Source: Trematomus loennbergii (lineage: Eukaryota; Chordata; Actinopteri; Perciformes; Nototheniidae). Taken from it: DNA of 64,000 nt. This document shows positions 1-35,086 of the stretch, piece after piece. The stretch is from contig JAAOOA010000465.1 of assembly GCA_012861695.1 (NCBI GenBank), positions 1 to 64,000 on the forward strand, given 5' to 3'. The translations under genes were made by a program, and so were the position numbers. Every line of letters begins with the position of its first letter. The stretch's first letter is position 1. A model generated the notes under the pieces. That model searched no databases and was not told the DNA's origin. It saw only the letters and a program-made list of their open reading frames with translations.

Positions 1-533
1 TTTGAATTTTTTATATTTTCCTTTACAGTCTGTAGCATTTGTCATGTTCAACCGCCCCAAAGAGAAGCACTTATTGAATTCAGACTCAGACCAATGCTCA
101 AGTTGGTTCAATATCAAAGACTTGCAACTCTTCATGGCTTATGAGTTTCCACGTGGGGTTTTCCACCATCTTCTCTGACTTTATTTTTGTCTTCTAATAT
201 ATGACGTAAAAATAAAGTGTGCATATGAACATATAGATAACCCATTGGATGATGCAGGGTCAGCAAAACTACCCCAACAAAAGCACTTACTGCAATGTAA
301 ACAAAGTTAGTGTTTTTGTAAAGGTTATCATAATGACCAAATCTGAACTCTGAAGACTGAAATTATATTGTGTGTGATGGAATCAGATACAAATAGATGC
401 AACAAATTGTGAGCATTTGAGAAACAATATTTATGTTGAATTCCTCACAACCAAGACAACCCAAAGAGAAGCACTTATGAAGACAAAAAAACATTAGTGT
501 TTTGCTTTAGGGTAATCTGAATGTGATTTCAAT
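1..533 (-). ncRNA. miR-430 unit B0 (cut by window edge)
   Basis: B2 subtype. Seed complements start at 67 (h1), 283 (h2) and 471 (h3). The start of the unit lies outside the window. It carries the TCTAATATATGACG variant after h1, which is otherwise seen only in right-hand copies. Confidence 0.85.
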
Positions 534-1434
534 GACATGTTTAGTTATAGTCTGTAGCATTTGTCCTCTTCAACCGCCCCAACAGGAAGCACTTGCTGAA
601 TTCAAATGCTCAAGTTGGGCCAATATCAAAGACTTTCAATTTCCTACAAAGGCATCTTCCATCATGATTTTACCGTTTTCCAAGGGGTTCCTTTCCAACA
701 TCTCCTTTGTGTGCCTCAGTGGAAGTGTTGTTTCTTGCAAAGATGTACCTTCTTAAGTACTGAATGCCGACATTTCCGCAAACCCCGCCTCAGTTTTGAT
801 TGCATTCAACGACCATTGTAAGTAACACCCGCACTCTCAACCATCACCTGATATGAACGGACTGCTATCACCTAACAAGTGGTCAATCAGAGTGTTGATG
901 TTTCTCGTTGCAACTCTGGCAGCAGCAGAATACTTAAACAATGCTAAGAAGCTCAGGCAATGAATATCCACTTCAGAAGGGACATTCAGCTTAAGTCTCC
1001 AAATCAAATCTTGAGATAATGTGTATCACTGCATGTCAATACTATGCAATCTACAGGTAACTTCTGTAGTAATATAGTACAGAATAATGACTCATTTTGA
1101 AGTGGGAGGTGACTGCATTCTGTCCATACTCAAAGACAGACTATAGTTGAAATGTGCATATCTTACTAAAGTTGAATACTAATGTACAACTAACACACTG
1201 GGAGAAATAAAGGTCAACAAAACTACCCCAACAAGTAGCACTTACTGCATTACACTCAAGTCAGTGCCTGTGTTTGGGTAATTTGGGTGACAAATACATG
1301 CAATAAATGGTGAGCATTTGAGAAAACAATATTTCTGTGAATCCTCACAACCAAGACAACCCCAAAGAGAAGCACTTATGAAGACCAACCATCATCAGTG
1401 TCTTGCTTTAGGGTAATCTGAATGTGATTTCAAT
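534..1434 (-). ncRNA. miR-430 unit A1
   Basis: Seed complements at 589 (h4), 1238 (h5) and 1372 (h3). Full promoter-like segment. Followed by a single B. Confidence 0.88.
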
Positions 1435-1956
1435 GACATATAATTCTTCCTTTACAGTCTGTAGCATTTGTCATGTTCAACCGCCCCAACGAGAAGCACT
1501 TATTGAATTCAGACTCAGACCAATGCTCACGTTGGTTCAATATCAAAGACTTGCAACTTTTCATGGCTTCTGAGTTTCCACGTGGGGTTTTCCACCATCT
1601 TCTCTGACTTTTCTTTTTGTCTTAAAAAAACTTAAAATAAACATTGCATATGAACATATAGATAACCCATTGGATGATGCAGGGTCAGCAAAACTACCCC
1701 AACAAAAGCACTTACTGCAATGTAAACAAAGTTAGTGTTTTTGTAAAGGTTATCATAATGACCAAATCTGAACTCTGAAGACTGAAATATATTGTATGTG
1801 ATGGAATCAGATACAAATAGATGCAGCAAATGTGAGCATTTGAGAAACAATATTTCTGTTGAATTCCTCACAACCAAGACAACCCAAAGAGAAGCACTTA
1901 TGAAGACAAAAAAACATTAGTGTTTTGCTTTAGGGTAATCTGAATGTGATTTCAAT
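1435..1956 (-). ncRNA. miR-430 unit B1
   Basis: B2 subtype (TTATCATAATG). Seed complements at 1496, 1708 and 1894. Confidence 0.88.
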
Positions 1957-2866
1957 TACATGTTTAGTTATAGTCTGTAGCATTTGTCCTCTTCAACCGC
2001 CCCAACAGGAAGCACTTGCTAAATTCAAATGCTCAGTTGGGCCAATATCAAAGACTTTCAATTTCCTACAGTCAAGGCATCTTCCATCATGATTTTACCG
2101 TTTTCCAAGGGTTCCTTTCCAAATCTCCTTTCTGCTGTGTGCCTCAGTGGAAGTGTTGTTTCTTGCAAAGATGTACCCTTCTTAAGTACTGAATGCCGAC
2201 ATTTCCGGCAAACCCGCCTCATTTTGATGCATTCAACGACCATTGTAAGTAAACACCCGCACTCTCAACCATCACCTGATATGAACGGACTGCTATCACC
2301 TAACAAGTGGTCAATCAGAGTTGTTGATGTTTCTCGTTGCAACTCTGGCAGCAGCAGCAATACTTAAACAATACTAAGAAGCTCAGGCAATGAATATCCA
2401 CTTCAGAAGGCACATTCAGCTTAAGTCTCCAAATCAAATCTTGAGATAATGTGTATCACTGCATGTCAATACTATGCAATCTACAGGTAACTTCTGTAGT
2501 AATATAGTACAGAATAATGACTCATTTTGAAGTGGGAGGTGACTGCATTCTGTCCATACTCAAAGACATAGACTATAGTTGAAATGTGCATATCTTACTA
2601 AAGTTGACTACTAATGTACAACTAACACACTGGGAGAAATAACGGTCAACAAAACTACCCCAACAAGTAGCACTTACTGCATTACACTCAAGTCAGTGCC
2701 TGTGTTTGGGTAATTTGGGTGACAAATACATGCAATAAATGGTGAGCATTTGAGAAACAATATTTCTGTTGAATTCCTCACAACCAAGACAACCCCAAAG
2801 AGAAGCACTTATGAAGACCAAAATCATTAGTGTCTTGCTTTAGGGTAATCTGAATGTGATTTCAAT
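1957..2866 (-). ncRNA. miR-430 unit A2
   Basis: Seed complements at 2012 (h4), 2670 (h5) and 2805 (h3). The unit junction reads TACAT instead of GACAT. Confidence 0.88.
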
Positions 2867-3388
2867 GACATATAATTCTTCCTTTACAGTCTGTAGCATT
2901 TGTCATGTTCAACCGCCCCAAAGAGAAGCACTTATTGAATTCAGACTCAGACCAATGCTCACGTTGGTTCAATATCAAAGACTTGCAACTTTTCATGGCT
3001 TCTGAGTTTCCACGTGGGGTTTTCCACCATCTTCTCTGACTTTTATTTTTGTCTTAAAAAAACTTAAAAAAACATTGCATATGAACATATAGATAACCAT
3101 TGGATGATGCTGGGTCAGCAAAACTACCCCAACAAAAGCACTTACTGCAATGTAAACAAAGTTAGTGTTTTTGTAAAGGTAATAATAAGGACCAAATCTG
3201 AACTCCTGATGACATAAATTATATTGTATGTGATGGAATCAGATACAAATAGATTGAACAAATGGTCAGCATTTGAGAAACAATATTTCTGTTGAATTCC
3301 TCACAACCAAGACAACCCAAAGAGAAGCACTTATGAAGACAAAAATCATTAGTGTTTTGCTTTAGGGTAATCTGAATGTGATTTCAAT
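2867..3388 (-). ncRNA. miR-430 unit B2
   Basis: B1 subtype (AATAATAAGG). Seed complements at 2928, 3138 and 3327. First B of an ABB triplet. Confidence 0.88.
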
Positions 3389-3908
3389 GACATATAATTC
3401 TTCCTTTACAGTCTGTAGCATTTGTCATGTTCAACCGCCCCAACGAGAAGCACTTATTGAATTCAGACTCAGACCAATGCTCACGTTGGTTCAATATCAA
3501 AGACTTGCAACTTTCATGGCTTCTGAGTTTCCACGTGGGGTTTTCCACCATCTTCTCTGACTTTTATTTTTGTCTTAAAAAAAACTTAAAATTAAACATT
3601 GCATATGAACATATAGATAACCCATTGGATGATGCAGGGTCAGCAAAACTACCCAACAAAAGCACTTACTGCAATGTAAACAAAGTTAGTGTTTTTGTAA
3701 AGGTTATCATAATGACCAAATCTGAACTCTGAAATTATATTGTATGTGATGGAATCAGATACAAATAGATGCAGCAAATTGTGAGCATTTGAGAAACAAT
3801 ATTTCTGTTGAATTCCTCACAACCAAGACAACCCCAAAGAGAAGCACTTATGAAGACAAAAAAAAACATTAGTGTTTTGCTTTAGGGTAATCTGAATGTG
3901 ATTTCAAT
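3389..3908 (-). ncRNA. miR-430 unit B3
   Basis: B2 subtype. Seed complements at 3450, 3662 and 3844. Second B of the ABB triplet. Confidence 0.88.
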
Positions 3909-5729
3909 GACATGTTTAGTTATAGTCTGTAGCATTTGTCCTCTTCAACCGCCCCAACAGGAAGCACTTGCTGAATTCAAATGCTCAAGTTGGGCCAATA
4001 TCAAAGACTTTCAATTTCCTACAGTCAAGGCATCTTCCATCATGATTTTACCGTTTTCCAAGGGGTTCCTTTCCAACATCTCCTTTGCTGTGCCTCAGTG
4101 GAAGTGTTGTTTCTTGCAAAGATGTACCCTTCTTAAGTACTGAATGCCGACATTTCCGGCAAACCCCGCCTCAATTTGATTGCATTCAACGACCATTGTA
4201 AGTAAACACCCGCACTCTCAACCATCACCTGATATGAACGGACTGCTATCACCTAACAAGTGGTCAATCAGAGTTGTTGATGTTTCTCGTTGCAACTCTG
4301 GCAGCAGCAGCAATACTTAAACAATACTAAGGCGCCGTTTACACGAGGAGAATACGGCTTGTATCTGCATAGTTTCGCGTGCGTATAGCCCTATTATTTA
4401 GACGAGGCCGATAGAAACTGACCACACAAACGATAACGGGTCCCAAGGTGGATAGATTTGCAAACGAAACGCTCTGGGGGGTCAACCGAGTCCGTTTAAT
4501 CGCCTCTATACGAATATTGCCTGGAAAAATAGGATAGCCCCGCCTCTCCTGCTCACTGCTGTACTAGCAACTATCAAAAATAGCTGTGTTAATTAAACGC
4601 ACAAGGGGTTCTTGAATGAAATAATATTATAAAAGGCAAACCAGAATTGTTAACGCCCAATATACTCCTTAAACAAAATAAACAGAGTCAGATTTCATGC
4701 ATTGATCCATTATATTGACAAAGGTGCATCTCACCCGGTGTTTGTAGAGAATATCTCTCTTTCTGAGCCGTCCTCTCGATGCAATATCCACAGAGACGTG
4801 CTTCTTGGTTTCTTTCAGTTAACTTCCCCGTAGCATTTATCCATATGCTGAGGAAATTACTATATCCCGCTGAATACCAGCAATCGCCACACACACTGAC
4901 TTCCTCCTGTCAGTAGCTACTGCTAGTGCTACTGCTACTGACCATGCTACAGATATTAGTGCAAAAATATACAGCTCCTCTACCACAACCATCAGCAACA
5001 ACAGATTCGGTTTCTTTCAGTTTCAGTTTCAGTTTCAGGGCTTAAACAGAAGGGTAGCCATGGCAACATTGCTGCGGGGCTGCTTCAGGCTGCTCTTCTT
5101 CGGGCTTTTGGTGTATATTGGCGGAAGTTACAGCGCCACTTACAGTCCCAGCATATGTACTACAGAGTTTCCAGCGGCCTCGTTTGAACAGACACGTTAA
5201 ATGAAACAAATGCATGTGAACGGAAGACTTTTTTGAATACGAATACTGTGCATAAAACGCAAACGGCCTCGTGTGAGCGGGGCCTAAGTCTCCAAATCAA
5301 ATCTTGAGATAATGTGTATCACTGCATGTCAATACTATGCAATCTACAGGTAACTTCTGTAGTAATATAGTACAGAATAATGACTCATTTTGAAGTTGGG
5401 AGGTGACTGCATTCTGTCCATACTCAAAGACATAGACTATAGTTGAAATGTGCATATCTTACTAAAGTTGACTACTAATGTACAACTAACACACTGGGAG
5501 AAATAAAGGTCAACAAACTACCCCAACAAGTAGCACTTACTGCATTACACTCAAGTCAGTGCCTGTGTTTGGGTAATTTGGGTGACAAATACATGCAATA
5601 AATGGTGAGCATTTGAGAAACAATATTTCTGTTGAATTCCTCACAACCAAGACAACCCCAAAGAGAAGCACTTATGAAGACCAAAATCATTAGTGTCTTG
5701 CTTTAGGGTAATCTGAATGTGATTTCAAT
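3909..5729 (-). ncRNA. miR-430 unit A3, split by a transposon
   Basis: Seed complements at 3964 (h4), 5533 (h5) and 5668 (h3). All three hairpins survive, but a 954-bp element (4331-5284) lies in the promoter-like segment, and about 45 bp of unit sequence normally found at that point is missing. Confidence 0.88.
4331..5284. mobile_element. non-autonomous PIF/Harbinger-like DNA transposon
   Basis: The imperfect terminal inverted repeats are GGCGCCGTTTACACGAGG and, reverse-complemented, GGCCCCGCTCACACGAGG (15 of 18 match). TAA flanks both sides (4328-4330 and 5285-5287); 3-bp TWA target duplications are typical of PIF/Harbinger. No transposase is encoded. The interior contains a short TTTCAG tandem run near 5010-5038. 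A segment near 5128-5175 closely resembles one in the element at 62409-63389. Superfamily assignment is inference from ends and duplication size. Confidence 0.75.
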
Positions 5730-6251
5730 GACATATAATTCTTCCTTTACAGTCTGTAGCATTTGTCATGTTCAACCGCCCCAAAGAGAAGCACTTATTG
5801 AATTCAGACTCAGACCAATGCTCACGTTGGTTCAATATCAAAGACTTGCAACTTTTCATGGCTATGAGTTTCCACGTGGGGTTTTCCACCATCTTCTCTG
5901 ACTTTTATTTTTGTCTTAAAAAAAACTTAAAAAAACATTGCATATGAACATATAGATAACCCATTGGATGATGCTGGGTCAGCAAAACTACCCCAACAAA
6001 AGCACTTACTGCAATGTAAACAAAGTTAGTGTTTTTGTAAAGGTAATAATAAGGACCAAATCTGAACTCCTGATGACATAAATTATTGTATGTGATGGAA
6101 TCAGATACAAATAGATTGAACAAATGGTCAGCATTTGAGAAACAATATTTCTGTTGAATTCCTCACAACCAAGACAACCCCAAAGAGAAGCACTTATGAA
6201 GACAAAAATCATTAGTGTTTTGCTTTAGGGTAATCTGAATGTGATTTCAAT
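5730..6251 (-). ncRNA. miR-430 unit B4
   Basis: B1 subtype. Seed complements at 5791, 6002 and 6190. Confidence 0.88.
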
Positions 6252-6770
6252 GACATATAATTCTTCCTTTACAGTCTGTAGCATTTGTCATGTTCAACCG
6301 CCCCAACGAGAAGCACTTATTGAATTCAGACTCAGACCAATGCTCACGTTGGTTCAATATCAAAGACTTGCAACTTTTCATGGCTTCTGAGTTTCCACAT
6401 GGGGTTTTCCACCATCTTCTCTGACTTTTATTTTTGTCTTAAAAAAAACTTAAAATTAAACATTGCATATGAACATATAGATAACCCATTGGATGATGCA
6501 GGGTCAGCAAAACTACCCCAACAAAAGCACTTACTGCAATGTAAACAAAGTTAGTGTTTTTGTAAAGGTTATCATAATGACCAAATCTGAACTCTGAAAT
6601 TATATTGTATGTGATGGAATCAGATACAAATAGATGCAGCAAATTGTGAGCATTTGAGAAACAATATTTCTGTTGAATTCCTCACAACCAAGACAACCCC
6701 AAAGAGAAGCACTTATGAAGACAAAAAAACATTAGTGTTTTGCTTTAGGGTAATCTGAATGTGATTTCAT
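6252..6770 (-). ncRNA. miR-430 unit B5
   Basis: B2 subtype. Seed complements at 6313, 6527 and 6709. Carries CCACATGG in place of the usual CCACGTGG. Confidence 0.88.
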
Positions 6771-7676
6771 GACATGTTTAGTTATAGTCTGTAGCATTTG
6801 TCCTCTTCAACCGCCCCAACAGGAAGCACTTGCTGAATTCAAATGCTCAAGTTGGGCCAATATCAAAGACTTTCAATTTCCTACAGTCAAGGCATCTTCC
6901 ATCATGATTTTACCGTTTTCCAAGGGGTTCCTTTCCAACATCTCCTTTGCTGTGCCTCAGTGGAAGTGTTGTTTCTTGCAAAGATGTACCCTTCTTAAGT
7001 ACTGAATGCCGACATTTCCGGCAAACCCCGCCTCATTTTGATTGCATTCAACGACCATTGTAAGTAAACACCCGCACTCTCAACCATCACCTGATATGAA
7101 CGGACTGCTATCACCTAACAAGTGGTCAATCAGAGTTGTTGATGTTTCTCGTTGCAACTCTGGCAGCAATACTTAAACAATGCTAAGAAGCTCAGGCAAT
7201 GAATATCCACTTCAGAAGGCACATTCAGCTTAAGTCTCCAAATCAAATCTTGAGATAATGTGTATCACTGCATGTCAATACTATGCAATCTACAGGTAAC
7301 TTCTGTAGTAATATAGTACAGAATAATGACTCATTTTGAAGTTGGGAGGTGACTGCATTCTGTCCATACTCAAAGACATAGACTATAGTTGAAATGTGCA
7401 TATCTTACTAAAGTTGACTACTAATGTACAACTAACACACTGGGAGAAATAAAGGTCAACAAAACTACCCCAACAAGTAGCACTTACTGCATTACACTCA
7501 AGTCAGTGCCTGTGTTTGGGTAATTTGGGTGACAAATACATGCAATAAATGGTGAGCATTTGAGAAACAATATTTCTGTTGAATTCCTCACAACCAAGAC
7601 AACCCCAAAGAGAAGCACTTATGAAGACAAAAATCATTAGTGTTTTGCTTTAGGGTAATCTGAATGTGATTTCAAT
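6771..7676 (-). ncRNA. miR-430 unit A4
   Basis: Seed complements at 6826 (h4), 7480 (h5) and 7615 (h3). Has a shorter GCAGCAAT run than A1 and A2. Begins the second AB-ABB-ABB super-unit. Confidence 0.88.
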
Positions 7677-8194
7677 GACATATAATTCTTCCTTTACAGT
7701 CTGTAGCATTTGTCATGTTCAACCGCCCCAAAGAGAAGCACTTATTGAATTCAGACTCAGACCAATGCTCACGTTGGTTCAATATCAAAGACTTGCAACT
7801 TTTCATGGCTTATGAGTTTCCACGTGGGGTTTTCCACCATCTTCTCTGACTTTTATTTTTGTCTTAAAAAAAACTTAAATTAAACATTGCATATGAACAT
7901 ATAGATAACCCATTGGATGATGCTGGGTCAGCAAAACTACCCCAACAAAAGCACTTACTGCAATGTAAACAAAGTTAGTGTTTTGTAAAGGTTATCATAA
8001 TGACCAAATCTGAACTCTGAAATTATATTGTATGTGATGGAATCAGATACAAATAGATGCAGCAAATTGTGAGCATTTGAGAAACAATATTTCTGTTGAA
8101 TTCCTCACAACCAAGACAACCCCAAAGAGAAGCACTTATGAAGACAAAAAAACATTAGTGTTTTGCTTTAGGGTAATCTGAATGTGATTTCAAT
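7677..8194 (-). ncRNA. miR-430 unit B6
   Basis: B2 subtype. Seed complements at 7738, 7951 and 8132. Confidence 0.88.
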
Positions 8195-9100
8195 GACATG
8201 TTTAGTTATAGTCTGTAGCATTTGTCCTCTTCAACCGCCCCAACAGGAAGCACTTGCTGAATTCAAATGCTCAAGTTGGGCCAATATCAAAGACTTTCAA
8301 TTTCCTACAGTCAAGGCATCTTCCATCATGATTTTACCGTTTTCCAAGGGGTTCCTTTCCAACATCTCCTTTGCTGTGCCTCAGTGGAAGTGTTGTTTCT
8401 TGCAAAGATGTACCCTTCTTAAGTACTGAATGCCGACATTTCCGGCAACCCCGCCTCAATTTTGATTGCATTCAACGACCATTGTAAGTAAACACCCGCA
8501 CTCTCAACCATCACCTGATATGAACGGACTGCTATCACCTAACAAGTGGTCAATCAGAGTTGTTGATGCTTCTCGTTGCAACTCTGGCAGCAATACTTAA
8601 ACAATGCTAAGAAGCGCAGGCAATGAATATCCACTTCAGAAGGCACATTCAGCTTAAGTCTCCAAATCAAATCTTGAGATAATGTGTATCACTGCATGTC
8701 AATACTATGCAATCTACAGGTAACTTCTGTAGTAATATAGTACAGAATAATGACTCATTTTGAAGTTGGGAGGTGACTGCATTCTGTCCATACTCAAAGA
8801 CATAGACTATAGTTGAAATGTGCATATCTTACTAAAGTTGACTACTAATGTACAACTAACACACTGGGAGAAATAAAGGTCAACAAAACTACCCCAACAA
8901 GTAGCACTTACTGCATTACACTCAAGTCAGTGCCTGTGTTTGGGTAATTTGGGTGACAAATACATGCAATAAATGGTGAGCATTTGAGAAACAATATTTC
9001 TGTTGAATTCCTCACAACCAAGACAACCCCAAAGAGAAGCACTTATGAAGACCAAAATCATTAGTGTCTTGCTTTAGGGTAATCTGAATGTGATTTCAAT
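8195..9100 (-). ncRNA. miR-430 unit A5
   Basis: Seed complements at 8250 (h4), 8904 (h5) and 9039 (h3). Confidence 0.88.
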
Positions 9101-9624
9101 GACATATAATTCTTCCTTTACAGTCTGTAGCATTTGTCATGTTCAACCGCCCCAAAGAGAAGCACTTATTGAATTCAGACTCAGACCAATGCTCACGTTG
9201 GTTCAATATCAAAGACTTGCAACTTTTCATGGCTTCTGAGTTTCCACGTGGGGTTTTCCACCATCTTCTCTGACTTTTATTTTGTCTTAAAAAAAACTTA
9301 AAATTAAACATTGCATATGAACATATAGATAACACTTGGATGATGCTGGGTCAGCAAAACTACCCCAACAAAAGCACTTACTGCAATGTAAACAAAGTTA
9401 GTGTTTTTGTAAAGGTAATAATAAGGACCAAATCTGAACTCCTGATGACATAAATTATATTGTATGTGATGGAATCAGATACAAATAGATTGAACAAATG
9501 GTCAGCATTTGAGAAACAATATTTCTGTTGAATTCCTCACAACCAAGACAACCCCAAAGAGAAGCACTTATGAAGACAAAATCATTAGTGTTTTGCTTTA
9601 GGGTAATCTGAATGTGATTTCAAT
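9101..9624 (-). ncRNA. miR-430 unit B7
   Basis: B1 subtype. Seed complements at 9162, 9374 and 9564. Confidence 0.88.
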
Positions 9625-10140
9625 GACATATAATTCTTCCTTTACAGTCTGTAGCATTTGTCATGTTCAACCGCCCCAACGAGAAGCACTTATTGAATTC
9701 AGACTCAGACCAATGCTCACGTTGGTTCAATATCAAAGACTTGCAACTTTTCATGGCTTCTGAGTTTCCACGTGGGGTTTTCCACCATCTTCTCTGACTT
9801 TTTTTTGTCTTAAAAAAACTTAAAATTAAACATTGCATATGAACATATAGATAACCCATTGGATGATGCAGGGTCAGCAAAACTACCCCAACAAAAGCAC
9901 TTACTGCAATGTAAACAAAGTTAGTGTTTTTGTAAAGGTTATCATAATGACCAAATCTGAACTCTGAAATTATATTGTATGTGATGGAATCAGATACAAA
10001 TAGATGCACAAATTGTGAGCATTTGAGAAACAATATTTCTGTTGAATTCCTCACAACCAAGACAACCCCAAAGAGAAGCACTTATGAAGACAAAAAAACA
10101 TTAGTGTTTTGCTTTAGGGTAATCTGAATGTGATTTCAAT
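9625..10140 (-). ncRNA. miR-430 unit B8
   Basis: B2 subtype. Seed complements at 9686, 9897 and 10078. Confidence 0.88.
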
Positions 10141-10182
10141 GACATGTTTAGTTATAGTCTGTAGCATTTGTCCTCTTCAACC

Positions 10183-10228
10183 GCCCCAACAGGAAGCACT
10201 TGCTGAATTCAAATGCTCAAGTTGGGCC
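10183..10228 (-). ncRNA. mir430: miR-430 precursor, class h4 (A units), representative copy
   Basis: Mature-like 3' arm CAAGUGCUUCCUGUUGGGGC maps to 10183-10202. The 5' arm lies at 10210-10227 and pairs along most of its length, with a C-rich end against GGGG, leaving a loop of about 7 nt. The first base is C rather than U, but seed nt 2-7 (AAGUGC) is intact. This is the first hairpin downstream of the promoter-like segment of each A unit. From A13 rightwards the loop gains about 9 bases (ATTGCAAAC). Confidence 0.85.
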
Positions 10229-10257
10229 AATATCAAAGACTTTCAATTTCCTACAGT

Positions 10258-10839: not shown

Positions 10840-10896
10840 CTACCCCAACAAGTAGCACTTACTGCATTACACTCAAGTCAGTGCCTGTGTTTGGGT
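10840..10896 (-). ncRNA. mir430: miR-430 precursor, class h5 (A units), representative copy
   Basis: The mature-like 3' arm begins UAAGUGCUACUUGUUGGGGU (10861 down to 10840). The 5' arm at 10877-10896 contains CCC, AAACAC and GCACUGAC blocks that pair with it. It lies upstream of the A-specific segment, so it is the last hairpin before the next promoter-like region when read on the minus strand. It has the same GUUGGGGU 3' half as class h2. Confidence 0.85.
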
Positions 10897-10972
10897 AATT
10901 TGGGTGACAAATACATGCAATAAATGGTGAGCATTTGAGAAACAATATTTCTGTTGAATTCCTCACAACCAA

Positions 10973-11035
10973 GACAACCCCAAAGAGAAGCACTTATGAA
11001 GACCAAAATCATTAGTGTCTTGCTTTAGGGTAATC
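10973..11035 (-). ncRNA. mir430c: miR-430c-like precursor, class h3 (both units), representative copy
   Basis: The mature arm UAAGUGCUUCUCUUUGGGG occupies 10978-10996 on the minus strand. The 5' arm is at 11010-11030 (CCCUAAAG...ACACUAAUG). About 15 of 19 mature positions pair, and the stem extends a few more base pairs outward. This class occurs once in every A and every B unit, which makes it the most abundant species in the cluster. The match to zebrafish miR-430c is from memory. Confidence 0.9.
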
Positions 11036-11099
11036 TGAATGTGATTTCAATGACATATAATTCTTCCTTTACAGTCTGTAGCATTTGTCATGTTCAACC

Positions 11100-11156
11100 G
11101 CCCCAACGAGAAGCACTTATTGAATTCAGACTCAGACCAATGCTCACGTTGGTTCA
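11100..11156 (-). ncRNA. mir430: miR-430 precursor, class h1 (B units), representative copy
   Basis: Mature-like 3' arm UAAGUGCUUCUCGUUGGGGC maps to 11100-11119. The 5' arm, around 11137-11154, contains CCAACGUGAGCAUUGG and pairs with a one-base bulge; the loop is about 17 nt. In roughly a third of B units the central G is U (AAAGAG instead of AACGAG on plus), giving a miR-430c-like mature sequence. Confidence 0.87.
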
Positions 11157-11309
11157 ATATCAAAGACTTGCAACTTTCATGGCTTCTGAGTTTCCACGTG
11201 GGGTTTTCCACCATCTTCTCTGACTTTTATTTTTGTCTTAAAAAAAACTTAAATTAAACATTGCATATGAACATATAGATAACCATTGGATGATGCTGGG
11301 TCAGCAAAA

Positions 11310-11365
11310 CTACCCCAACAAAAGCACTTACTGCAATGTAAACAAAGTTAGTGTTTTTGTAAAGG
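11310..11365 (-). ncRNA. mir430: miR-430 precursor, class h2 (B units), representative copy
   Basis: The mature-like 3' arm begins UAAGUGCUUUUGUUGGGGUA (11330 down to 11310). The 5' arm CCUUUACAAAAACACUAAC at 11347-11365 pairs over about 16 positions, with a loop of about 16 nt. One copy, near 23366, has lost two bases in the seed (GCTTAC in place of GCACTTAC on plus). Confidence 0.88.
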
Positions 11366-19842: not shown

Positions 19843-20750
19843 GACATGTTTAGTTATAGTCTGTAGCATTTGTCCTCTTCAACCGCCCCAACAGGAAGCA
19901 CTTGCTGAATTCAAAATGCTCAAGTTGGGCCAATATCAAAGACTTTCAATTTCCTACAGTAAAGGCATCTTCCATCATGATTTTACCGTTTTCCAAGGGG
20001 TTCCTTTCCAACATCTCCTTTGCTGTGTCTCAGTGGAAGTGTTGTTTCTTGCAAAGATGTACCCTTCTTAAGTACTGAATGCAGACATTTCCAGCAACCC
20101 CCTCAGTTTTGATTGCTTTCAACGACCATTGTAAGTAAACACCCGCACTCTCAACCATCACCTGATATGAACGGACTGCTATCACCTAACAAGTGGTCAA
20201 TCAGAGTTGTTGATGTTTCTCGTTGCAACTCTGGCAGCAGCAGCAATACTTAAACAATGCTAAGAAGCTCAGGCAATGAATATCCACTTCAGAAGGCACA
20301 TTCAGCTTAAGTCTCCAAATCAAATCTTGAGATAATGTGTATCACTGCATGTCAATACTATGCAATCTACAGGTAACTTCTGTAGTAATATAGTACAGAA
20401 TAATGACTCATTTTGAAGTTGGGAGGTGACTGCATTCTGTCCATACTCAAAGACATAGACTATAGTTGAAATGTGCATATCTTACTAAAGTTGATACTAA
20501 TGTACAACTAACACACTGGGAGAAATAAAGGTCAACAAAACTACCCCAACAAGTAGCACTTACTGCATTACACTCAAGTCAGTGCCTGTGTTTGGGTAAT
20601 TTGGTGACAAATACATGCAATAAATGGTGAGCATTTGAGAAACAATATTTCTGTTGAATTCCTCACAACCAAGACAACCCCAAAGAGAAGCACTTATGAA
20701 GACCAAAATCATTAGTGTTTGCTTTAGGGTAATCTGAATGTGATTTCAAT
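19843..20750 (-). ncRNA. miR-430 unit A11
   Basis: Seed complements at 19898 (h4), 20556 (h5) and 20690 (h3). The GC box is weakened to CCCCCTC. Confidence 0.88.
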
Positions 20751-21274
20751 GACATATAATCTTCCTTTACAGTCTGTAGCATTTGTCATGTTCAACCGCC
20801 CCAACGAGAAGCACTTATTGAATTCAGACTCAGACCAATGCTCACGTTGGTTCAATATCAAAGACTTGCAACTTTCATGGCTTATGAGTTTCCACGTGGG
20901 GTTTTCCACCATCTTCTCTGACTTTTTTTTGTCTTCTAATATATGACGTAAAAATAAAGTGTGCATATGAACATATAGATAACACATTGGATGATGCAGG
21001 GTCAGCAAAACTACCCCAACAAAAGCACTTACTGCAATGTAAACAAAGTTAGTGTTTTTGTAAAGGTTATCATAATGACCAAATCTGAACTCTGAAGACT
21101 GAAATTATATTGTATGTGATGGAATCAGATACAAATAGATGCAGCAAATTGTGAGCATTTGAGAAACAATATTTCTGTTGAATTCCTCACAACCAAGACA
21201 ACCCCAAAGAGAAGCACTTATGAAGAAAAAAAACATTAGTGTTTGCTTTAGGGTAATCTGAATGTGATTTCAAT
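20751..21274 (-). ncRNA. miR-430 unit B19
   Basis: B2 subtype with the TCTAATATATGACG variant. Seed complements at 20811, 21025 and 21214. Confidence 0.88.
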
Positions 21275-22171
21275 GACATGTTTAGTTATAGTCTGTAGCA
21301 TTGTCCTCTTCAACCGCCCCAACAGGAAGCACTTGCTGAATTCAAAGCTCAAGTTGGGCCAATATCAAAGACTTTCAATTTCCTACAGTAAGGCATCTTC
21401 CATCATGATTTTACCGTTTTCCAAGGGGTTCCTTTCCAACATCTCCTTGCTGTGTCAGTGGAAGTGTTGTTTCTTGCAAAGATGTACCCTTCTTAAGTAC
21501 TGAATGCAGACATTTCCGGTCAACCCCCTCAGTTTTGATTGCATTCAACGACCATTGTAAGTAAACACCCGCACTCTCAACCATCACCTGATATGAACGG
21601 ACTGCTATCACCTAACAAGTGGTCAATCAGAGTTGTTGATGTTTCTCGTTGCAACTCTGGCAGCAGCAGCAATACTTAAACAATGCTAAGAAGCTCAGGC
21701 AATGAATATCCACTTCAGAAGGCACATTCAGCTTAAGCTCCAAATCAAATCTGAGATAATGTGTATCACTGCATGTCAATACTATGCAATCTACAGGTAA
21801 CTTCTGTAGTATATAGAACAGAATAATGACTCATTTGAAGTTGGGAGGTGACTGCATTCTGTCCATACTCAAAGACATAGACTATAGTTGAAATGTTCAT
21901 ATCTTACTAAAGTTGAATACTAATGTACAACTAACACACTGGGAGAAATACAGGTCAACAAAACTACCCCAACAAGTAGCACTTACTGCATTACACTCAA
22001 GTCAGTGCCTGTGTTTGGGTAATTTGGGTGACAAATACATGCAATAAATGGTGAGCATTTGAGAAACAATATTTCTGTTGAATTCCTCACAACCAAGACA
22101 ACCCAAAGAGAAGCACTTATGAAGAAAAATCATAGTGTTTTGCTTTAGGGTAATCTGAATGTGATTTCAAT
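21275..22171 (-). ncRNA. miR-430 unit A12 (no B partner)
   Basis: Seed complements at 21329 (h4), 21979 (h5) and 22113 (h3). It is followed directly by another A. It has several single-base deletions and the GC box reads CCCCCTC. Confidence 0.87.
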
Positions 22172-23088
22172 GACATGTTTAGTTATAGTCTGTAGCATTT
22201 GTCCTCTTCAACCGCCCCAACAGGAAGCACTTGCTGAATTCATTGCAAATCAATGCTCAAGTTGGGCCAATATCAAAGACTTTCAATTTCCTACAGTAAA
22301 GGCATCTTCCATCATGATTTTACCGTTTTCCAAGGGGTTCCTTTCCAACATCTCCTTTGCTGTGCCTCAGTGGAAGTGTTGTTTCTTGCAAAGATGTACC
22401 CTTCTTAAGTACTGAATGCGACATTTCCGGCAACCCCGCCTCAGTTTTGATTGCTTCAACGACCATTGTAAGTAAACACCCGCACTCTCAACCATCACCT
22501 GATATGAACGGACTGCTATCACCTAACAAGTGGTCAATCAGAGTTGTTGATGTTTCTCGTTGCAACTCTGGCAGCAGCAGCAATACTTAAACAATGCTAA
22601 GAAGCTCAGGCAATGAATATCCACTTCAGAAGGCACATTCAGCTTAAGCTCCAAATCAAATCTTGAGATAATGTGTATCACTGCATGTCAATACTATGCA
22701 ATCTACAGGTAACTTCTGTAGTAATATAGTACAGAATAATGACTCATTTTGAAGTTGGGAGGTGACTGCATTCTGTCCATACTCAAAGACATAGACTATA
22801 GTTGAAATGTGCATATCTTACTAAAGTTGAATACTAATGTACAACTAACACACTGGGAGAAATAAAGGTCAAAAAACTACCCCAACAAGTAGCACTTACT
22901 GCATTACACTCAAGTCAGTGCCTGTGTTTGGGTAATTTGGGTGACAAATACATGCAATAAATGGTGAGCATTTGAGAAACAATATTTCTGTTGAATTCCT
23001 CACAACCAAGACAACCCCAAAGAGAAGCACTTATGAAGACCAAAATCATTAGTGTCTTGCTTTAGGGTAATCTGAATGTGATTTCAAT
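22172..23088 (-). ncRNA. miR-430 unit A13
   Basis: Seed complements at 22227 (h4), 22892 (h5) and 23027 (h3). First A with the ATTGCAAA insertion in the h4 loop. Confidence 0.88.
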
Positions 23089-23615
23089 GACATATAATTC
23101 TTCCTTTACAGTCTGTAGCATTTGTCATGTTCAACCGCCCCAACGAGAAGCACTTATTGAATTCAGACTCAGACCAATGCTCACGTTGGTTCAATATCAA
23201 AGACTTGCAACTTTTCATGGCTTCTGAGTTTCCACGTGGGGTTTTCCACCATCTTCTCTGACTTTTATTTTGTCTTCTAATATATGACGTAAAAATAAAG
23301 TGTGCATATGAACATATAGATAACACATTGGATGATGCAGGGTCAGCAAAACTACCCCAACAAAAGCTTACTAGCAATGTAAAACAAAGTTAGTGTTTTT
23401 GTAAAGGTAATAATAAGGACCAAATCTGAACTCTGATGACATAAATTATATTGTATGTGATGGAATCAGATACAAATAGATTGAACAAATGGTCAGCATT
23501 TGAGAAACAATATTTTTGTTGAATTCCTCACAACCAAGACAACCCCAAAGAGAAGCACTTATGAAGACAAAAATCATTAGTGTTTGCTTTAGGGTAATCT
23601 GAATGAGATTTCAAT
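23089..23615 (-). ncRNA. miR-430 unit B20, h2 seed broken
   Basis: B1 subtype. Seed complements at 23150 (h1) and 23555 (h3). Near 23366 the h2 seed complement has lost two bases, so this hairpin should not yield a miR-430 seed. Confidence 0.87.
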
Positions 23616-24133
23616 GACATATAATTCTTCCTTTACAGTCTGTAGCATTTGTCATGTTCAACCGCCCCAACGAGAAGCACTTATTGAATTCAGACTCAGA
23701 CCAATGCTCACGTTGGTTCAATATCAAAGACTTGCAACTTTCATGGCTTATGAGTTTCCACGTGGGGTTTTCCACCATCTTCTCTGACTTTTTTTTGTCT
23801 TAAAAAAAACTTAAAATAAACATTGCATATGAACATATAGATAACCATTGGATGATGCAGGGTCAGCAAAACTACCCCAACAAAAGCACTTACTGCAATG
23901 TAAACAAAGTTAGTGTTTTGTAAAGGTTATCATAATGACCAAATCTGAACTCTGAAGACTGAAATGATATTGTATGTGATGGAATCAGATACAAATAGAT
24001 GCAACAAATTGTGAGCATTTGAGAAACAATATTTCTGTTGAATTCCTCACAACCAAGACAACCCCAAAGAGAAGCACTTATGAAGAAAAAAACATTAGGT
24101 TTTGCTTTAGGGTAATCTGAATGTGATTTCAAT
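23616..24133 (-). ncRNA. miR-430 unit B21
   Basis: B2 subtype. Seed complements at 23677, 23886 and 24074. Confidence 0.88.
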
Positions 24134-25053
24134 GACATGTTTAGTTATAGTCTGTAGCATTTGTCCTCTTCAACCGCCCCAACAGGAAGCACTTGCTGAA
24201 TTCATTGCAAACCAATGCTCAAGTTGGGCCAATATCAAAGACTTTCAATTTCCTACAGTAAAGGCATCTTCCATCATGATTTTACCGTTTTCCAAGGGGT
24301 TCCTTTCCAACATCTCCTTTGCTGTGTCTCAGTGGAAGTGTTGTTTCTTGCAAAGATGTACCCTTCTTAAGTACTGAATGCAGACATTTCCAGCAAACCC
24401 GCCTCATTTTGATTGCATTCAACGACCATTGTAAGTAAACACCCGCACTCTCAACCATCACCTGATATGAACGGACTGCTATCACCTAACAAGTGGTCAA
24501 TCAGAGTTGTTGATGTTTCTCGTTGCAACTCTGGCAGCAGCAGCAATACTTAAACAATGCTAAGAAGCTCAGGCAATGAATATCCACTTCAGAAGGCACA
24601 TTCAGCTTAAGTCTCCAAATCAAATCTTGAGATAATGTGTATCACTGCATGTCAATACTATGCAATCTACAGGTAACTTCTGTAGTAATATAGTACAGAA
24701 TAATGACTCATATTTGAAGTTGGGAGGTGACTGCATTCTGTCCATACTCAAAGACATAGACTATAGTTGAAATGTGCATATCTTACTAAAGTTGAATACT
24801 AATGTACAACTAACACACTGGGAGAAATAAAGGTCAACAAAACTACCCCAACAAGTAGCACTTACTGCATTACACTCAAGTCAGTGCCTGTGTTTGGGTA
24901 ATTTTGGTGACAAATACATGCAATAAATGGTGAGCATTTGAGAAACAATATTTCTGTTGAATTCCTCACAACCAAGACAACCCCAAAGAGAAGCACTTAT
25001 GAAGACCAAAATCATTAGTGTTTGCTTTAGGGTAATCTGAATGAGATTTCAAT
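24134..25053 (-). ncRNA. miR-430 unit A14
   Basis: Seed complements at 24189 (h4), 24858 (h5) and 24993 (h3). Expanded h4 loop. Confidence 0.88.
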
Positions 25054-25570
25054 GACATATAATCTTCCTTTACAGTCTGTAGCATTTGTCATGTTCAACC
25101 GCCCCAACGAGAAGCACTTATTGAATTCAGACTCAGACCAATGCTCACGTTGGTTCAATATCAAAGACTTGCAACTTTCATGGCTTCTGAGTTTCCACGT
25201 GGGGTTTTCCACCATCTTCTCTGACTTTTTTTTTGTCTCTAAAAACGTAAAATAAATGTGCATATGAACATATAGATAACACATTGGATGATGCAGGGTC
25301 AGCAAAACTACCCCAACAAAAGCACTTACTGCAATGTAAACAAAGTTAGTGTTTTGTAAAGGTTATCATAATGACCAAATCTGAACTCTGAAGACTGAAA
25401 TATATTGTATGTGATGGAATCAGATACAAATAGATGAACAAATTGTGAGCATTTGAGAAACAATATTTCTGTTGAATTCCTCACAACCAAGACAACCCCA
25501 AAGAGAAGCACTTATGAAGAGAAAAAAACATTAGTGTTTTGCTTTAGGGTAATCTGAATGTGATTTCAAT
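25054..25570 (-). ncRNA. miR-430 unit B22
   Basis: B2 subtype. Seed complements at 25114, 25322 and 25508. Confidence 0.88.
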
Positions 25571-26488
25571 GACATGTTTAGTTATAGTCTGTAGCATTTG
25601 TCCTCTTCCACCGCCCCAACAGGAAGCACTTGCTGAATTCAATTGCAAACCAATCCTCAAGTTGGGCCAATATCAAAGACTTTCAATTTCCTACAGTAAA
25701 GGCATCTTCCATCATGATTTTACCGTTTTCCAAGGGGTTCCTTTCCACATTCATGCCCTTTGCTGTGTCTCAGTGGAAGTGTTGTTTCTTGCAAAGATGT
25801 ACCCTTCTTAAGTACTGAATGCAGACATTTCCAGCCAACCCCGCCTCATTTTGATTGTTTCAACGACCATTGTAAGTAAACACCCGCACTCTCAACCATC
25901 ACCTGATATGAACGGACTGCTATCACCTAACAAGTGGTCAATCAGAGTTGTTGATGTTTCTCGTTGCAACTCTGGCAGCAGCAGTAATACTTAAACAATG
26001 CTAAGAAGCTCAGGCAATGAATATCCACTTCAGAAGGCACATTCAGCTTAAGTCCAAATCAAATGTTGAGATAATGTGTATCACTGCATGTAATAATTGC
26101 AATCTACAGGTAACTTCTGTAGTAATATAGTACAGAATAATGACTCATTTGAAGTTGGGAGGTGACTGCATTCTGTCCATACTCAAAGACATAGACTATA
26201 GTTGAAATGTGCATATATTACTAAAGTTGATACTAATGTACAACTAACACACTGGGAGAAATACAGGTCAACAAAACTACCCCAACAAGTAGCACTTACT
26301 GCATTACACTCAAGTCAGTGCCTGTGTTTGGGTAATTTTGGTGACAAATACATGCAATAAATGGTGAGCATTTGAGAAACAATATTTCTGTTGAATTCCT
26401 CACAACCAAGACAACCCCAAAGAGAAGCACTTATGAAGACCAAAATCATTAGTGTTTTGCTTTAGGGTAATCTGAATGAGATTTCAAT
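25571..26488 (-). ncRNA. miR-430 unit A15
   Basis: Seed complements at 25626 (h4), 26292 (h5) and 26427 (h3). Expanded h4 loop. The usual CAACATCTCC reads CACATTCATGCC. Confidence 0.87.
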
Positions 26489-27015
26489 GACATATAATTC
26501 TTCCTTTACAGTCTGTAGCATTTGTCATGTTCAACCGCCCCAACGAGAAGCACTTATTGAATTCAGACTCAGACCAATGCTCACGTTGGTTCAATATCAA
26601 AGACTTGCAACTCTTCATGGCTTATGAGTTTCCACGTGGGGTTTTCCACCATCTTCTCTGACTTTTCTTTTTGTCTTCTAATATATGACGTAAAAATAAA
26701 GTGTGCATATGAACATATAGATAACATTGGATGATGCAGGGTCAGCAAAACTACCCCAACAAAAGCACTTACTGCAATGTAACAAAGTTAGTGTTTTTGT
26801 AAAGGTTATCATAATGACCAAATCTGAACTCTGAAGACTGAAATGATATTGTATGTGATGGAATCAGATACGAATAGATTGAACAAATTGTGAGCATTTG
26901 AGAAACAATATTTCTGTTGAATTCCTCACAACCAAGACAACCCCAAAGAGAAGCACTTATGAAGAAAACAATACATTAGTGTTTTGCTTTAGGGTAATCT
27001 GAATGAGATTTCAAT
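26489..27015 (-). ncRNA. miR-430 unit B23
   Basis: B2-like with GATTGAACAAATTG. Seed complements at 26550, 26765 and 26953. Confidence 0.88.
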
Positions 27016-27628
27016 ACATGTTTAGTTATAGTCTGTAGCATTTGTCCTCTTCACCACCCCAACAGGAAGCACTTGCTGAATTCAATTGCAAACCAATCCT
27101 CAAGTTGGGCCAATATCAAAGACTTTCAGTTTCCTACAGTAAAGGCATCTTCCATCATGATTTTACCGTTTTCCAAGGGGTTCCTTTCCAACATCTCCTT
27201 TGCTGTGTCTCAGTGGAAGTGTTGTTTCTTGCAAAGATGTACCCTTCTTAAGTACTGAATGCAGACATTTCCAGCCAACCCCGCCTCAGTTTTGATTGCT
27301 TTCAACAACCATTGTAAGTAAACACCCGCACTCTCAACCATCACCTGATATGAACGGACTGCTATCACCTAACAAGTGGTCAATCGAGTTGTTGATGAGA
27401 AATAAAGGTCAACAAAATTACCCCAACAAGTAGCACTTACTGCATTACACTCAAGTCAGTGCCTGTGTTTGGGTAATTTTGGTGACAAATACATGCAATA
27501 AATGGTGAGCATTTGAGAAACAATATTTCTGTTGAATTCCTCACAACCAAGACAACCCAAAGAGAAGCACTTATGAAGACCAAAATCATTAGTGTTTTGC
27601 TTTAGGGTAATCTGAATGAGATTTCAAT
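27016..27628 (-). ncRNA. miR-430 unit A16, promoter segment deleted
   Basis: Seed complements at 27069 (h4), 27433 (h5) and 27567 (h3). A deletion joined at about 27399 removes most of the A-specific segment between the CCAAT-like site and h5. The hairpins are kept. Confidence 0.87.
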
Positions 27629-28147
27629 GACATATAATTCTTCCTTAACAGTCTGTAGCATTTGTCATGTTCAACCGCCCCAAAGAGAAGCACTTATTGA
27701 ATTCAGACTCAGACCAATGCTCACGTTGGTTCAATATCAAAGACTGGCAACTCTTCATGGCTTATGAGTTTCTACGTGGGGTTTTCCACCATCTTCTCTG
27801 ACTTTTCTTTTTGTCTTAAAAAAAAGGTCAAATTAAACATTGCATATGAACATATAGATAACACGCTGGATGATGCTGGGTCAGCAAAACTACCCCAACA
27901 AAAGCACTTACTACAATTGGAACAAAGTTAGTGTTTTTGTAAAGGTTATCATAATGACCAAATCTGAACTCTGAAATGATATTGTATGTGATGGAATCAG
28001 ATACAAATAGATGCAAAAATTGTGAGCATTTGAGAAACAATATTTCTGTTGAATTCCTCACAACCAAGACAACCCCAAAGAGAAGCACTTATGAAGAAAA
28101 CAATACATTAGTGTTTTGCTTTAGGGTAATCTGAATGAGATTTCAAT
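27629..28147 (-). ncRNA. miR-430 unit B24
   Basis: B2 subtype. Seed complements at 27690, 27904 and 28085. The h2 loop side reads ACTACAATTGG instead of ACTGCAATG. Confidence 0.87.
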
Positions 28148-28935
28148 GACATGTTTAGTTATAGTCTGTAGCATTTGTCCTCTTCCACCGCCCCAACAGG
28201 AAGCACTTGCTGAATTCAATTGCAAACCAATCCTCAAGTTGGGCCAATATCAAAGACTTTGAGTTTCCTACAGTAAAGGCATCTTCCATCATGATTTTAC
28301 CTTTTTCCAAGGGGTTCCTTTCCAACATCTCCTTTGCTGTGTCTCAGTGGAAGTGTTGTTTATTACAAAGATGTACCCTTCTTAAGTACTGAATGCAGAC
28401 ATTTCCAGCCAACCCTGCCTCATTTTTTATTAGTTTCAATGCTAAGAAGCTCAGGCAATGAATATCCACTTCAGAAGCCACATTCAGCTTAAGTCTCCAA
28501 ATCAAATGTTGAGATAATATGTATCACTGCATGTCAATAATATGCAATCTACAGGTAACTTCTGTAGTAATATAGTACAGAATAATGACTCATTTTGAAG
28601 TTGGGAGGTGACTGCATTCTGTCCATACTCAAAGACATAGACTATAGTTGAAATGTGCATATCTTACTAAAGTTGACTGCTAATGTACAACTAACACACT
28701 GGGAGAAATAAAGGTCAACAAAACTACCCCAACAAGTAGCACTTACTGCATTACACTCAAGTCAGTGCCTGTGTTTGGGTAATTTTGGTGACAAATACAT
28801 GCAATAAATGGTGAGCATTTGAGAAACATATTTCTGTTGAATTCCTCACAACCAAGACAACCCCAAAGAGAAGCACTTATGAAGAAAACAATACATTAGT
28901 GTTTTGCTTTAGGGTAATCTGAATGAGATTTCAAT
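28148..28935 (-). ncRNA. miR-430 unit A17, internal deletion
   Basis: Seed complements at 28203 (h4), 28739 (h5) and 28873 (h3). The forkhead and CCAAT part of the A-specific segment is deleted near 28438. No B follows. Confidence 0.87.
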
Positions 28936-29856
28936 GACATGTTTAGTTATAGTCTGTAGCATTTGTCCTCTTCCACCGCCCCAACAGGAAGCACTTGCTG
29001 AATTCAATTGCAAACCAATCCTCAAGTTGGGCCAATATCAAAGACTTTCAGTTTCCTACAGTAAAGGCATCTTCCATCATGATTTTACCTTTTTCCAAGG
29101 GGTTCCTTTCCAACATCTCCTTTGCTGTGTCTCAGTGGAAGTGTTGTTTCTTGCAAAGATGTACCCTTCTTAAGTACTGAATGCAGACATTTCCAGCCAA
29201 CCCCGCTCAGTTTTGATTGCTTTCAACGACCATTGTAAGTAAACACCCGCACTCTCAACCATCACCTGATCTGAACGGACTGCTATCACCTAACAAGTGG
29301 TCACTCAGAGTTGTTGATGTTTCTCGTTGCAACTCTGGCAGCAGCAGCAATACTTAAATAATGCTAAGAAGCTCAGGCAATGAATATCCACTTCAGAAGG
29401 CACATTCAGCTTAAGTCTCCAAATCAAATGTTGAGATAATATGTATCACTGCATGTCAATAATTTGCAATCTACAGGTAACTTCTGTAGTAATATAGTAC
29501 AGAATAATGACTAATTTTGAAGTTGGGAGGTGACTGCATTCTGTCCATACTCAAAGACATAGACTATAGTTGAAATGTGCATATATTACTAAAGTTGACT
29601 ACTAATGTACAACTAACACACTGGGAGAAATAAGGTCAACAAAACTACCCCAACAAGTAGCACTTACTGCATTACACTCAAGTCAGTGCCTGTGTTTGGG
29701 TAATTTTGGTGAAAAATACATGCAATAAATGGTGAGCATTTGAGAAACAATATTTATGTTGAATTCCTCACAACCAAGACAACCCCAAAGAGAAGCACTT
29801 ATGAAGACCAAAATCATTAGTGTTTTGCTTTAGGGTAATCTGAATGAGATTTCAAT
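28936..29856 (-). ncRNA. miR-430 unit A18
   Basis: Seed complements at 28991 (h4), 29660 (h5) and 29795 (h3). Confidence 0.88.
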
Positions 29857-30380
29857 GATATATAATTCTTCCTTTACAGTCTATAGCATTTGTCGTGTTC
29901 AACCGCCCCAACGAGAAGCACTTATTGAATTCAGACTCAGACCAATGCTCACGTTGGTTCAATATCAAAGACTTGCAACTCTTCATGGCTTATGAGTTTC
30001 CACGTGGGGTTTTCCACCATCTTCTCAGACTTTTCTTGTTGTCTTAAAAAAAATTAAAATTAAACATTGCATATGAACATATAGATAACACGCTGGATGA
30101 TGCTGGGTCAGCAAAACTACCCCAACAAAAGCACTTACTACAATTGGAACAAAGTTAGTGTTTTTGTAAAGGTTATCTTAATGACCAAATCTGAACTCTG
30201 AAGACTGAAATGATATTGTATGTGATGGAATCAGATACAAATAGATGCAACAAATTGTGAGCATTTGTGAAACAATATTTCTGTTGAATTCTTCACAACC
30301 AAGACAACCCCAAAGAGAAGCACTTATGAAGAAAAATACATTAGTGTTTTGCTTTAGGGTAATCTGAATGAGATTTCAAT
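29857..30380 (-). ncRNA. miR-430 unit B25
   Basis: B2 subtype. Seed complements at 29918, 30131 and 30320. Several private substitutions. Confidence 0.87.
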
Positions 30381-31301
30381 GACATGTTTAGTTATAGTCT
30401 GTAGCATTTGTCCTCTTCCACCGCCCCAACAGGAAGCACTTGTGAATTCAATTGCAAACCAATGCTCAAGTTGGGCCAATATCAAAGACTTTCAGTTTCC
30501 TACAGTAAAGGCATCTTCCATCATGATTTTACGTTTTCCAAGGGGTTCCTTTCCAACATCTCCTTTGCTGTGTCTCAGTGGAAGTGTTGTTTCTTGCAAA
30601 GATGTACCCTTCTTAAGTACTGAATGCAGACATTTCCAGCCAACCCCGTCTCATTTTTGATTAGTTTCAACGACCATTATAAGTAAACACCCGCACTCTC
30701 AACCATCACCTGATATGAACGGACTGCTATCACCTAACAAGTGGTCAATCAGAGTTGTTGATGTTTCTCGATGCAACTCTGGCAGCAGCAGCAATACTTA
30801 AACAATGCTAAGAAGCTCAGGCAATGAATATCCACTTCAGAAGGCACATTCAGCTTAAGTCTCCAAATCAAATCTTGAGATAATGTGTATCACTGCATGT
30901 CAATAATATGCAATCTACAGGTAACTTCTGTAGTAATATAGTACAGAATAATGACTCATTATGAAGTTGGGAGGTGACTGCATTCTGTCCATACTCAAAG
31001 ACATAGACTATAGTTGAAATGTACATATCTTACTAAAGTTGACTACTAATGTACAACTAACACACTGGGAGAAATACAGGTCAATAAAACTACCCCAACA
31101 AGTAGCACTTACTGCATTACACTCAAGTCAGTGCCTGTGTTTGGGTAATTTTGGTGACAAATACATGCAATAAATGGTGAGCATTTGAGAAACAATATTT
31201 CTGTTGAATTCCTCACAACCAAGACAACCCCAAAGAGAAGCACTTATGAAGACCAAAATCATTAGTGTTTTGCTTTAGGGTAATCTGAATGAGATTTCAA
31301 T
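30381..31301 (-). ncRNA. miR-430 unit A19 (promoter-side end of the cluster)
   Basis: Seed complements at 30436 (h4), 31105 (h5) and 31240 (h3). Read on the minus strand this is the first A unit of the cluster. Confidence 0.88.
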
Positions 31302-31750
31302 GACATAATACTTCCTTTACAGTCTGTAGCATTTGTCATGTTCAACCGCCCCAACGAGAAGCACTTATTGAATTCAGACTCAGACCAATGCTCAAGTTGG
31401 TTCAATATCAAAGACTTGCACCTCTTCTTTGCTTATGAGTTTCCACATGGGGTTTTCCACCATCTTCTCTGACTTTTATTTTTGTCTTCTAATATATGAC
31501 GTAAAAATAAAGTGTGCATATGAACATATAGATAACACATTGGATGATGCATGGTCAGCAAAACTACCCAAACAAAAGCACTTACTGCAATGTAAACAAA
31601 GTTAGTGGTTTTGTAAAGGTAATAATAAGGACCAAATCTGAACTCTGATGACATAAATTATATTGTATGTGATGGAATCAGATACAAATAGATTGAACAA
31701 ATTGTGAGCATTTGAGAAACAATATTTCTGTTGAATTCCTCACAACCAAG
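31302..31750 (-). ncRNA. miR-430 unit B26, truncated
   Basis: B1 subtype. Seed complements at 31361 (h1) and 31578 (h2). The h3 hairpin is lost at a deletion junction at 31750/31751. Confidence 0.86.
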
Positions 31751-31851
31751 AATTCAGACGCAGACCAATGCTCACATTGGTTCAATATCAAAGACTTGCA
31801 CCTCTTCATGGCTTATGAGTTTCCACGTGGGGTTTTCCATCATCTTCTCTG
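31751..31851 (-). ncRNA. miR-430 unit B27, terminal fragment
   Basis: Only the part from the 5' arm of h1 to the following TTCTCTGA remains. The mature arm is missing. The array stops here against the L2 tail. Confidence 0.82.
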
Positions 31852-35078: not shown

Positions 35079-35086
35079 CCCTGGTG

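Follow-up and report, generated by a model that had tools for sequence, protein, structure and literature searches.

miR-430 arrays in other species

The miR-430 array of zebrafish is one of the first loci to become transcriptionally active, and the first transcription bodies nucleate on it (PMC11021188). Zebrafish clusters contain 57 and 10 copies (PMC2427041), and cap analysis of gene expression located at least 8 start sites, with 6 to 9 miR430 genes predicted from each (PMC6370886). Multiple miR-430 copies were reported in all species studied in a 2023 survey, which located the arrays with a repeat-finding program (PMC10417697), and clusters of 7 to 55 microRNAs (miRNAs) were described in a comparison of five fishes (PMC5584509). 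Here, we analyzed a stretch of 64,000 nucleotides from Trematomus loennbergii (assembly GCA_012861695.1, contig JAAOOA010000465.1, positions 1 to 64,000; the window), in which an initial annotation had read a satellite-like array as a giant miR-430 cluster. We assign a probability of about 0.8 to the reading that positions 1 to 31740 comprise 136 predicted miR-430 hairpins in cassettes and likely form a multi-promoter miRNA factory of the fish embryo. The array lies on the minus strand and is cut by the left edge of the window.

Like the zebrafish locus on chromosome 4, this array is built of several classes arranged in tandem, all with AAGUGC in common (PMC2427041, PMC6370886, PMC11021188, PMC12255298). 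The zebrafish locus is built of a-c-b triplets of ∼1129 bp (PMC10417697), whereas the array described here has five classes, no match to miR-430b, and cassettes that vary between a constant head and a constant tail. In zebrafish, promoter activity was measured; here, it is predicted from sequence. The arrays of other fishes also consist of tandem units, there with one to four copies per unit, with b often lost, and, in most species, with a putative promoter inside the unit (PMC10417697). The order found here matches none of the 17 orders in Table 1 of that survey (PMC10417697). Nothobranchius furzeri likewise has a repeated a/c-type order without b, but its order, c/a/a/c/a/a/a, differs (PMC5584509). 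In Xenopus laevis, mir-427 is multicopy, expressed early in the zygote, and clears maternal mRNA; its 33 copies are spread over 55 kb in both orientations (PMC10569791), compared to 136 copies in 31.9 kb and a single orientation here.

The initial annotation had ranked the locus among the densest miRNA loci known, a claim that stands only in part. At 4.27 miR-430 seeds per kb, the array is denser than 15 of the 17 units in Table 1 of the survey but sparser than the other two, Gadus morhua (2 per 251 bp, or 8.0/kb) and Micropterus salmoides (3 per 448 bp, or 6.7/kb), as well as several cichlid units (Tables 1 and 2; densities computed from PMC10417697). The annotation also supposed that repeat masking would hide the locus; in the survey, it was a repeat-finding program that revealed such arrays (PMC10417697). 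This type of locus is already known from many fishes; what the present array adds is a cassette rule and a bounded candidate promoter, making it a clean sequence case for asking, by comparison of species, why promoters are packed so tightly.

Seeds and hairpin classes

The count of about 136 seeds in the initial annotation proved exact, because the word GCACTT occurs 136 times on the plus strand of positions 1 to 31851 and its reverse complement does not occur there at all. The tandem, one-strand clustering of the miR-430 family is therefore found at 136 of 136 sites, all on the minus strand as annotated. Although the search word was AAGUGC and the eighth base, U, was never asked for, AGCACTT was read at every site, giving the seed AAGUGCU. 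The seed occupies positions 2 to 8 of a predicted 3′-arm miRNA, the arm position being taken from folding, and is preceded by U (117 copies) or C (19 copies). The repeated core proposed earlier, GAAGCACTT, is real, with 91 matches confined to the plus strand and to positions up to 31366 (1.16 expected by chance; 91 reached by 0 of 100 shuffles), but it is the core of these 91 copies rather than of all 136. Within cassettes, seeds are spaced 114 to 217 bp apart, the site of one dead hairpin (described below) excepted. The last seed stands at 31583, and a truncated minus-strand unit (31740 to 31851) marks the edge of the array, abutting an AAGGC repeat and sequence like that of a long interspersed nuclear element (LINE). 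To the right of the array, an Rfam search of positions 31800 to 64000 at E values up to 1 returned no miR-430 match. AGCACTT words near 54630 were considered as miR-430 remnants and rejected, as they are part of a short AT-rich repeat.

The 136 copies fall into five minus-strand classes, all sharing the AAGUGCU seed: C1 (UAAGUGCUUCUCUUUGGGGUUG; 45 copies, 39 exact), A2 (UAAGUGCUUUUGUUGGGGUAG; 26 copies, 24 exact), C2 (UAAGUGCUUCUC(G/U)UUGGGGCGG; 27 copies, 18 + 8 exact), A1 (UAAGUGCUACUUGUUGGGGUAG; 19 copies, 18 exact), and C3 (CAAGUGCUUCCUGUUGGGGCGG; 19 copies, 18 exact). One class had been annotated as miR-430c from the 19-mer UAAGUGCUUCUCUUUGGGG, which is present in 47 copies and which the annotation equated with zebrafish miR-430c. 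The class assignment itself is well founded, since 39 copies of C1 are identical to the 22-nucleotide (nt) miR-430c of Monopterus albus (PMC8269179). Class A1 differs by one base from the miR-430a of the same species (PMC8269179). These similarities indicate a fish. A literature search for exact matches to six class strings (five in RNA and one in DNA spelling) found only that of C1 in print, in the Monopterus paper. Two core words of miR-430b had no match on either strand. No copy of the 22-mer was found in bacterial or archaeal genomes, nor of the 19-mer in viral contigs, which fits animal DNA. Class C2 (2928 to 31361) occurs in two forms that differ at a central base of the mature arm, G in 18 exact copies and U in 8; the latter agree with the 19-mer of C1, a pattern that gene conversion would leave.

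Rfam recognition and folding

The miR-430 identity of the array is confirmed by Rfam family RF01413, which gave 58 matches above its curated gathering score of 47.3 bits, all on the minus strand inside the array (best match, 70.7 bits), and by the 22-nt identity to Monopterus miR-430c. Folding each unit, a check that the annotation had called for, supported minus-strand hairpins for most copies: in 70-nt pieces, z was below −2 in 104/136 and below −3 in 64/136 copies relative to shuffles, with class mean folding energies from −16.4 to −22.6 kcal/mol. When flanking sequence was included, at least 14 of the 22 mature bases were paired to the 5′ arm in 121/136 copies versus 13/136 control positions, in agreement with the annotated position on the 3′ arm. 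The 15 copies that failed to fold in context were 9 of 27 C2, 5 of 26 A2, and 1 of 19 C3.

An ordinary satellite with a chance likeness to miR-430 would likewise be tandem, AT rich, and CpG poor, and a gene locus such as this one can resemble satellite DNA; the array does not appear in the Tandem Repeats Finder listing, for which the longest period was 500. Rfam scores of up to 70.7 bits, five unlike classes with one seed, and 22-nt identity to a published miR-430c already refute such a coincidence, to which we attach a negligible probability.

Not all of the evidence points toward miR-430 hairpins throughout. Classes C2 and C3, together 46 of the 136 copies, are hardly recognized by Rfam: neither is represented among the 58 matches above the cutoff, and among the 150 of 164 Rfam matches listed (E up to 1), two are C3 (24169 to 24236 and 30416 to 30483) and none is C2. 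C2 is also the weakest class in context, with 18 of 27 copies folding. In addition, judged by z, the plus strand of C1 and A2 (−4.73 and −3.36, respectively) folds as well as or better than the minus strand (−4.52 and −2.33). The 46 C2 and C3 copies are members of the family by their seed, their place in the cassette rule, and their fold, not by the Rfam model.

Other assignments scored lower. Plus-strand Rfam matches were rejected as a second set of miRNAs, with at best 35.9 bits, compared to 69.7 bits for the same hairpin on the minus strand. Mammalian mir-373, an Rfam example of a relative whose seed is similar, scored 29.8 bits against a cutoff of 69 for that family, and mir-1420 scored 31.9 bits against a cutoff of 70.

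Cassette rule

Read in the direction of transcription, all 18 complete cassettes follow one order, a ∼650-bp spacer and then C3-C1-(A2-C2-C1)n-A1, where n ranges between 0 and 3. Coordinates given here run from seed to seed, and all cassettes are on the minus strand. Two cassettes have n = 0 (three hairpins, C3-C1-A1; 21979 to 22232 and 28739 to 28996). Eight have n = 1 (six hairpins, C3-C1-A2-C2-C1-A1; 1238 to 2017, 7480 to 8255, 12796 to 13571, 20556 to 21334, 24858 to 25631, 26292 to 27074, 27433 to 28208, and 29660 to 30441). Seven have n = 2, of which six carry nine hairpins (2670 to 3969, 5533 to 6831, 8904 to 10201, 10855 to 12150, 16681 to 17965, and 18614 to 19903) and one has eight live members and one dead A2 (22892 to 24194). 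The remaining cassette has n = 3 (12 hairpins; 14225 to 16028). Partial cassettes with four members each stand at the two ends of the array: C3-C1-A2-C2 (67 to 594), cut by the window edge, and A2-C2-C1-A1 (31105 to 31583), at the right array end. The only exception to the rule is the dead A2 hairpin, the 137th of the array (23347 to 23414), which is missing two seed bases; at 47.8 bits, it is nonetheless one of the 58 RF01413 matches above the cutoff. We found no description of the cassette rule in the literature searched, a coverage that takes in few subscription journals.

Should each cassette be a transcription unit, it would produce one polycistronic primary transcript, or longer read-through transcripts would form, to be cut by Drosha and Dicer. 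The five classes would then yield 3′-arm miRNAs that pair through the AAGUGCU seed with GCACUU in maternal mRNAs and, by extension from work in zebrafish, would promote decay of these mRNAs at zygotic genome activation. Many short promoters acting in parallel could provide high output during the short early cell cycles. Unequal exchange probably keeps the units alike and changes n by gain or loss of A2-C2-C1 triplets between the fixed head and tail. The array also carries 92 minus-strand AAATGCT words, which fall at fixed positions along the primary transcript, downstream of hairpins.

Six or nine positions are found in 15 of the 18 complete cassettes, one of them including the dead member, compared to the 6 to 9 miRNAs per promoter predicted in zebrafish (PMC6370886). 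It is conceivable, as a tentative proposal that we consider rather doubtful, that selection holds the number of miRNAs per promoter and not their sequence or order. The number would then be 6 or 9 here, as in zebrafish with its unlike units; triplets would be gained and lost between the head, C3-C1, and the tail, A1; and each cassette would keep one CpG-retaining promoter open within satellite-like DNA that is methylated elsewhere.

Spacers and candidate promoter

The ratio of observed to expected CpG is 0.26 in the array versus 0.58 in the flank, with TG and CA in excess. This pattern resembles that of DNA long methylated, and the loss of CpG suggests long methylation in the germ line. Within the array, 19 spacers separate A1 from C3. 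Sixteen are regular, with a mean identity of 98.0% (worst, 94.7%); of the three irregular spacers, one has a 961-bp insert and two have deletions. The most divergent spacers are the three rightmost and one at 2012. In the 16 regular spacers, the CpG ratio is 0.72 at bases 320 to 480, compared to 0.01 at bases 0 to 320 and 0.15 at bases 480 to 660.

Of the 19 spacers, 17 contain a complete CpG-retaining block of ∼115 bp, an 18th carries its core words, and one lacks it. By pattern match, one full copy lies at 805 to 917 on the minus strand, and the other full copies, on the same strand, start at 2232, 4185, 7047, 8471, 10417, 12366, 13787, 16243, 18180, 20118, 21544, 22455, 24418, 25859, 29222, and 30666. 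Alignment of the 16 regular copies revealed seven variable columns within the block, each due to one copy. On the transcribed strand, the block comes before the first hairpin of its cassette, and it is likely the promoter from which that cassette is transcribed. The transposon-like 961-bp insert (4327 to 5287) is flanked by TTA at either end, has imperfect terminal inverted repeats, and spares the candidate block of its spacer.

Some observations speak against a promoter in this block. No TATA box was found in the spacers. Single blocks contain 4 to 7 CpG, a number that the densest 160-nt windows of shuffled sequence also reach (mean maximum, 6.6), so that the argument for a promoter depends on where the block lies and on the depletion of CpG on all sides of it. 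The copies of the block are not independent of one another, and the 22 CpG-retaining stretches comprise 6 at C2 hairpins as well as 16 in the spacers between A1 and C3. Words for early-embryo factors represent one site per unit multiplied by the number of copies and were therefore not used as promoter evidence. A multi-promoter locus of the zebrafish type would also be marked by a transcription body with Nanog, Pou5f3, and Sox19b.

Alternatively, this could be a genuine miR-430 array whose promoters, one or a few in number, lie at its edge or beyond, with long transcripts and with spacers that are filler kept alike by exchange. Such an arrangement would fit the lack of a TATA box and the cassette at 27433 to 28208, whose upstream spacer (28203 to 28739) has no candidate block. 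It also has parallels elsewhere: zebrafish transcripts of up to 8 kb are reported to extend across several pri-miR-430 (PMC6593175), and the 2023 survey includes three species whose units yielded no putative promoter (PMC10417697). However, 17 of the 19 spacers retain CpG at the same position, many start sites lie within the zebrafish array (PMC6370886), and the sequence at the right edge, from which minus-strand transcription would enter the array, is LINE-like. We consider external promoters improbable and favor a promoter for each cassette.

Probable constraint on the mature arms

Variable columns were fewer among mature bases 8 to 22 than in the spacer between hairpins (5/90 versus 168/980; Fisher P = 0.0025, permutation P = 0.006; the seed, having been searched for, was excluded, and neither the three irregular spacers between A1 and C3 nor the one segment containing the dead A2 entered the count). 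Since columns and copies in a homogenized array are not independent, these P values are only a guide. Two comparisons run contrary to constraint on the hairpins: variability in the 5′ arm and loop equals that of the spacer (0.034 versus 0.025), and at the C2-to-C1 junction it is higher in the mature arm than in the spacer of that junction (0.0205 versus 0.0074).

These data bear on whether the array is decayed or silent, a satellite-like relic with working copies elsewhere in the genome. CpG has been lost, and one hairpin is dead, one promoter block is gone, and one transposon has inserted, all of which a relic would explain. Against this, the whole seed is intact in 136 of 137 hairpins, the mature arms are less variable than the spacers, and Rfam scores are near full length, making a relic very improbable in our judgment.

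Sequence surrounding the array

A LINE-like element on the minus strand (31852 to 37100) abuts the array, with the AAGGC repeat at its edge. It contains an endonuclease frame (35449 to 36522), a GDSL/OSK-like frame (36523 to 37071), and a weak reverse transcriptase match below the Pfam cutoff (33264 to 33836). Further LINE pieces on both strands (56395 to 62415) include reverse transcriptase matches at 58471 to 58929 and 58973 to 59932 and endonuclease matches at 61508 to 62415. Possible pieces of a hAT-type transposase were found on the minus strand (38583 to 40741), with weak DUF4371 and zinc finger matches, both below the Pfam cutoff. Retroelement-like frames occupy the plus strand from 46409 to 51637, with a zinc knuckle above the Pfam cutoff at 47713 to 48288 and several frames without a match. 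GC-rich minisatellites with periods of 35 to 45 and 85 bp lie at 55461 to 56004.

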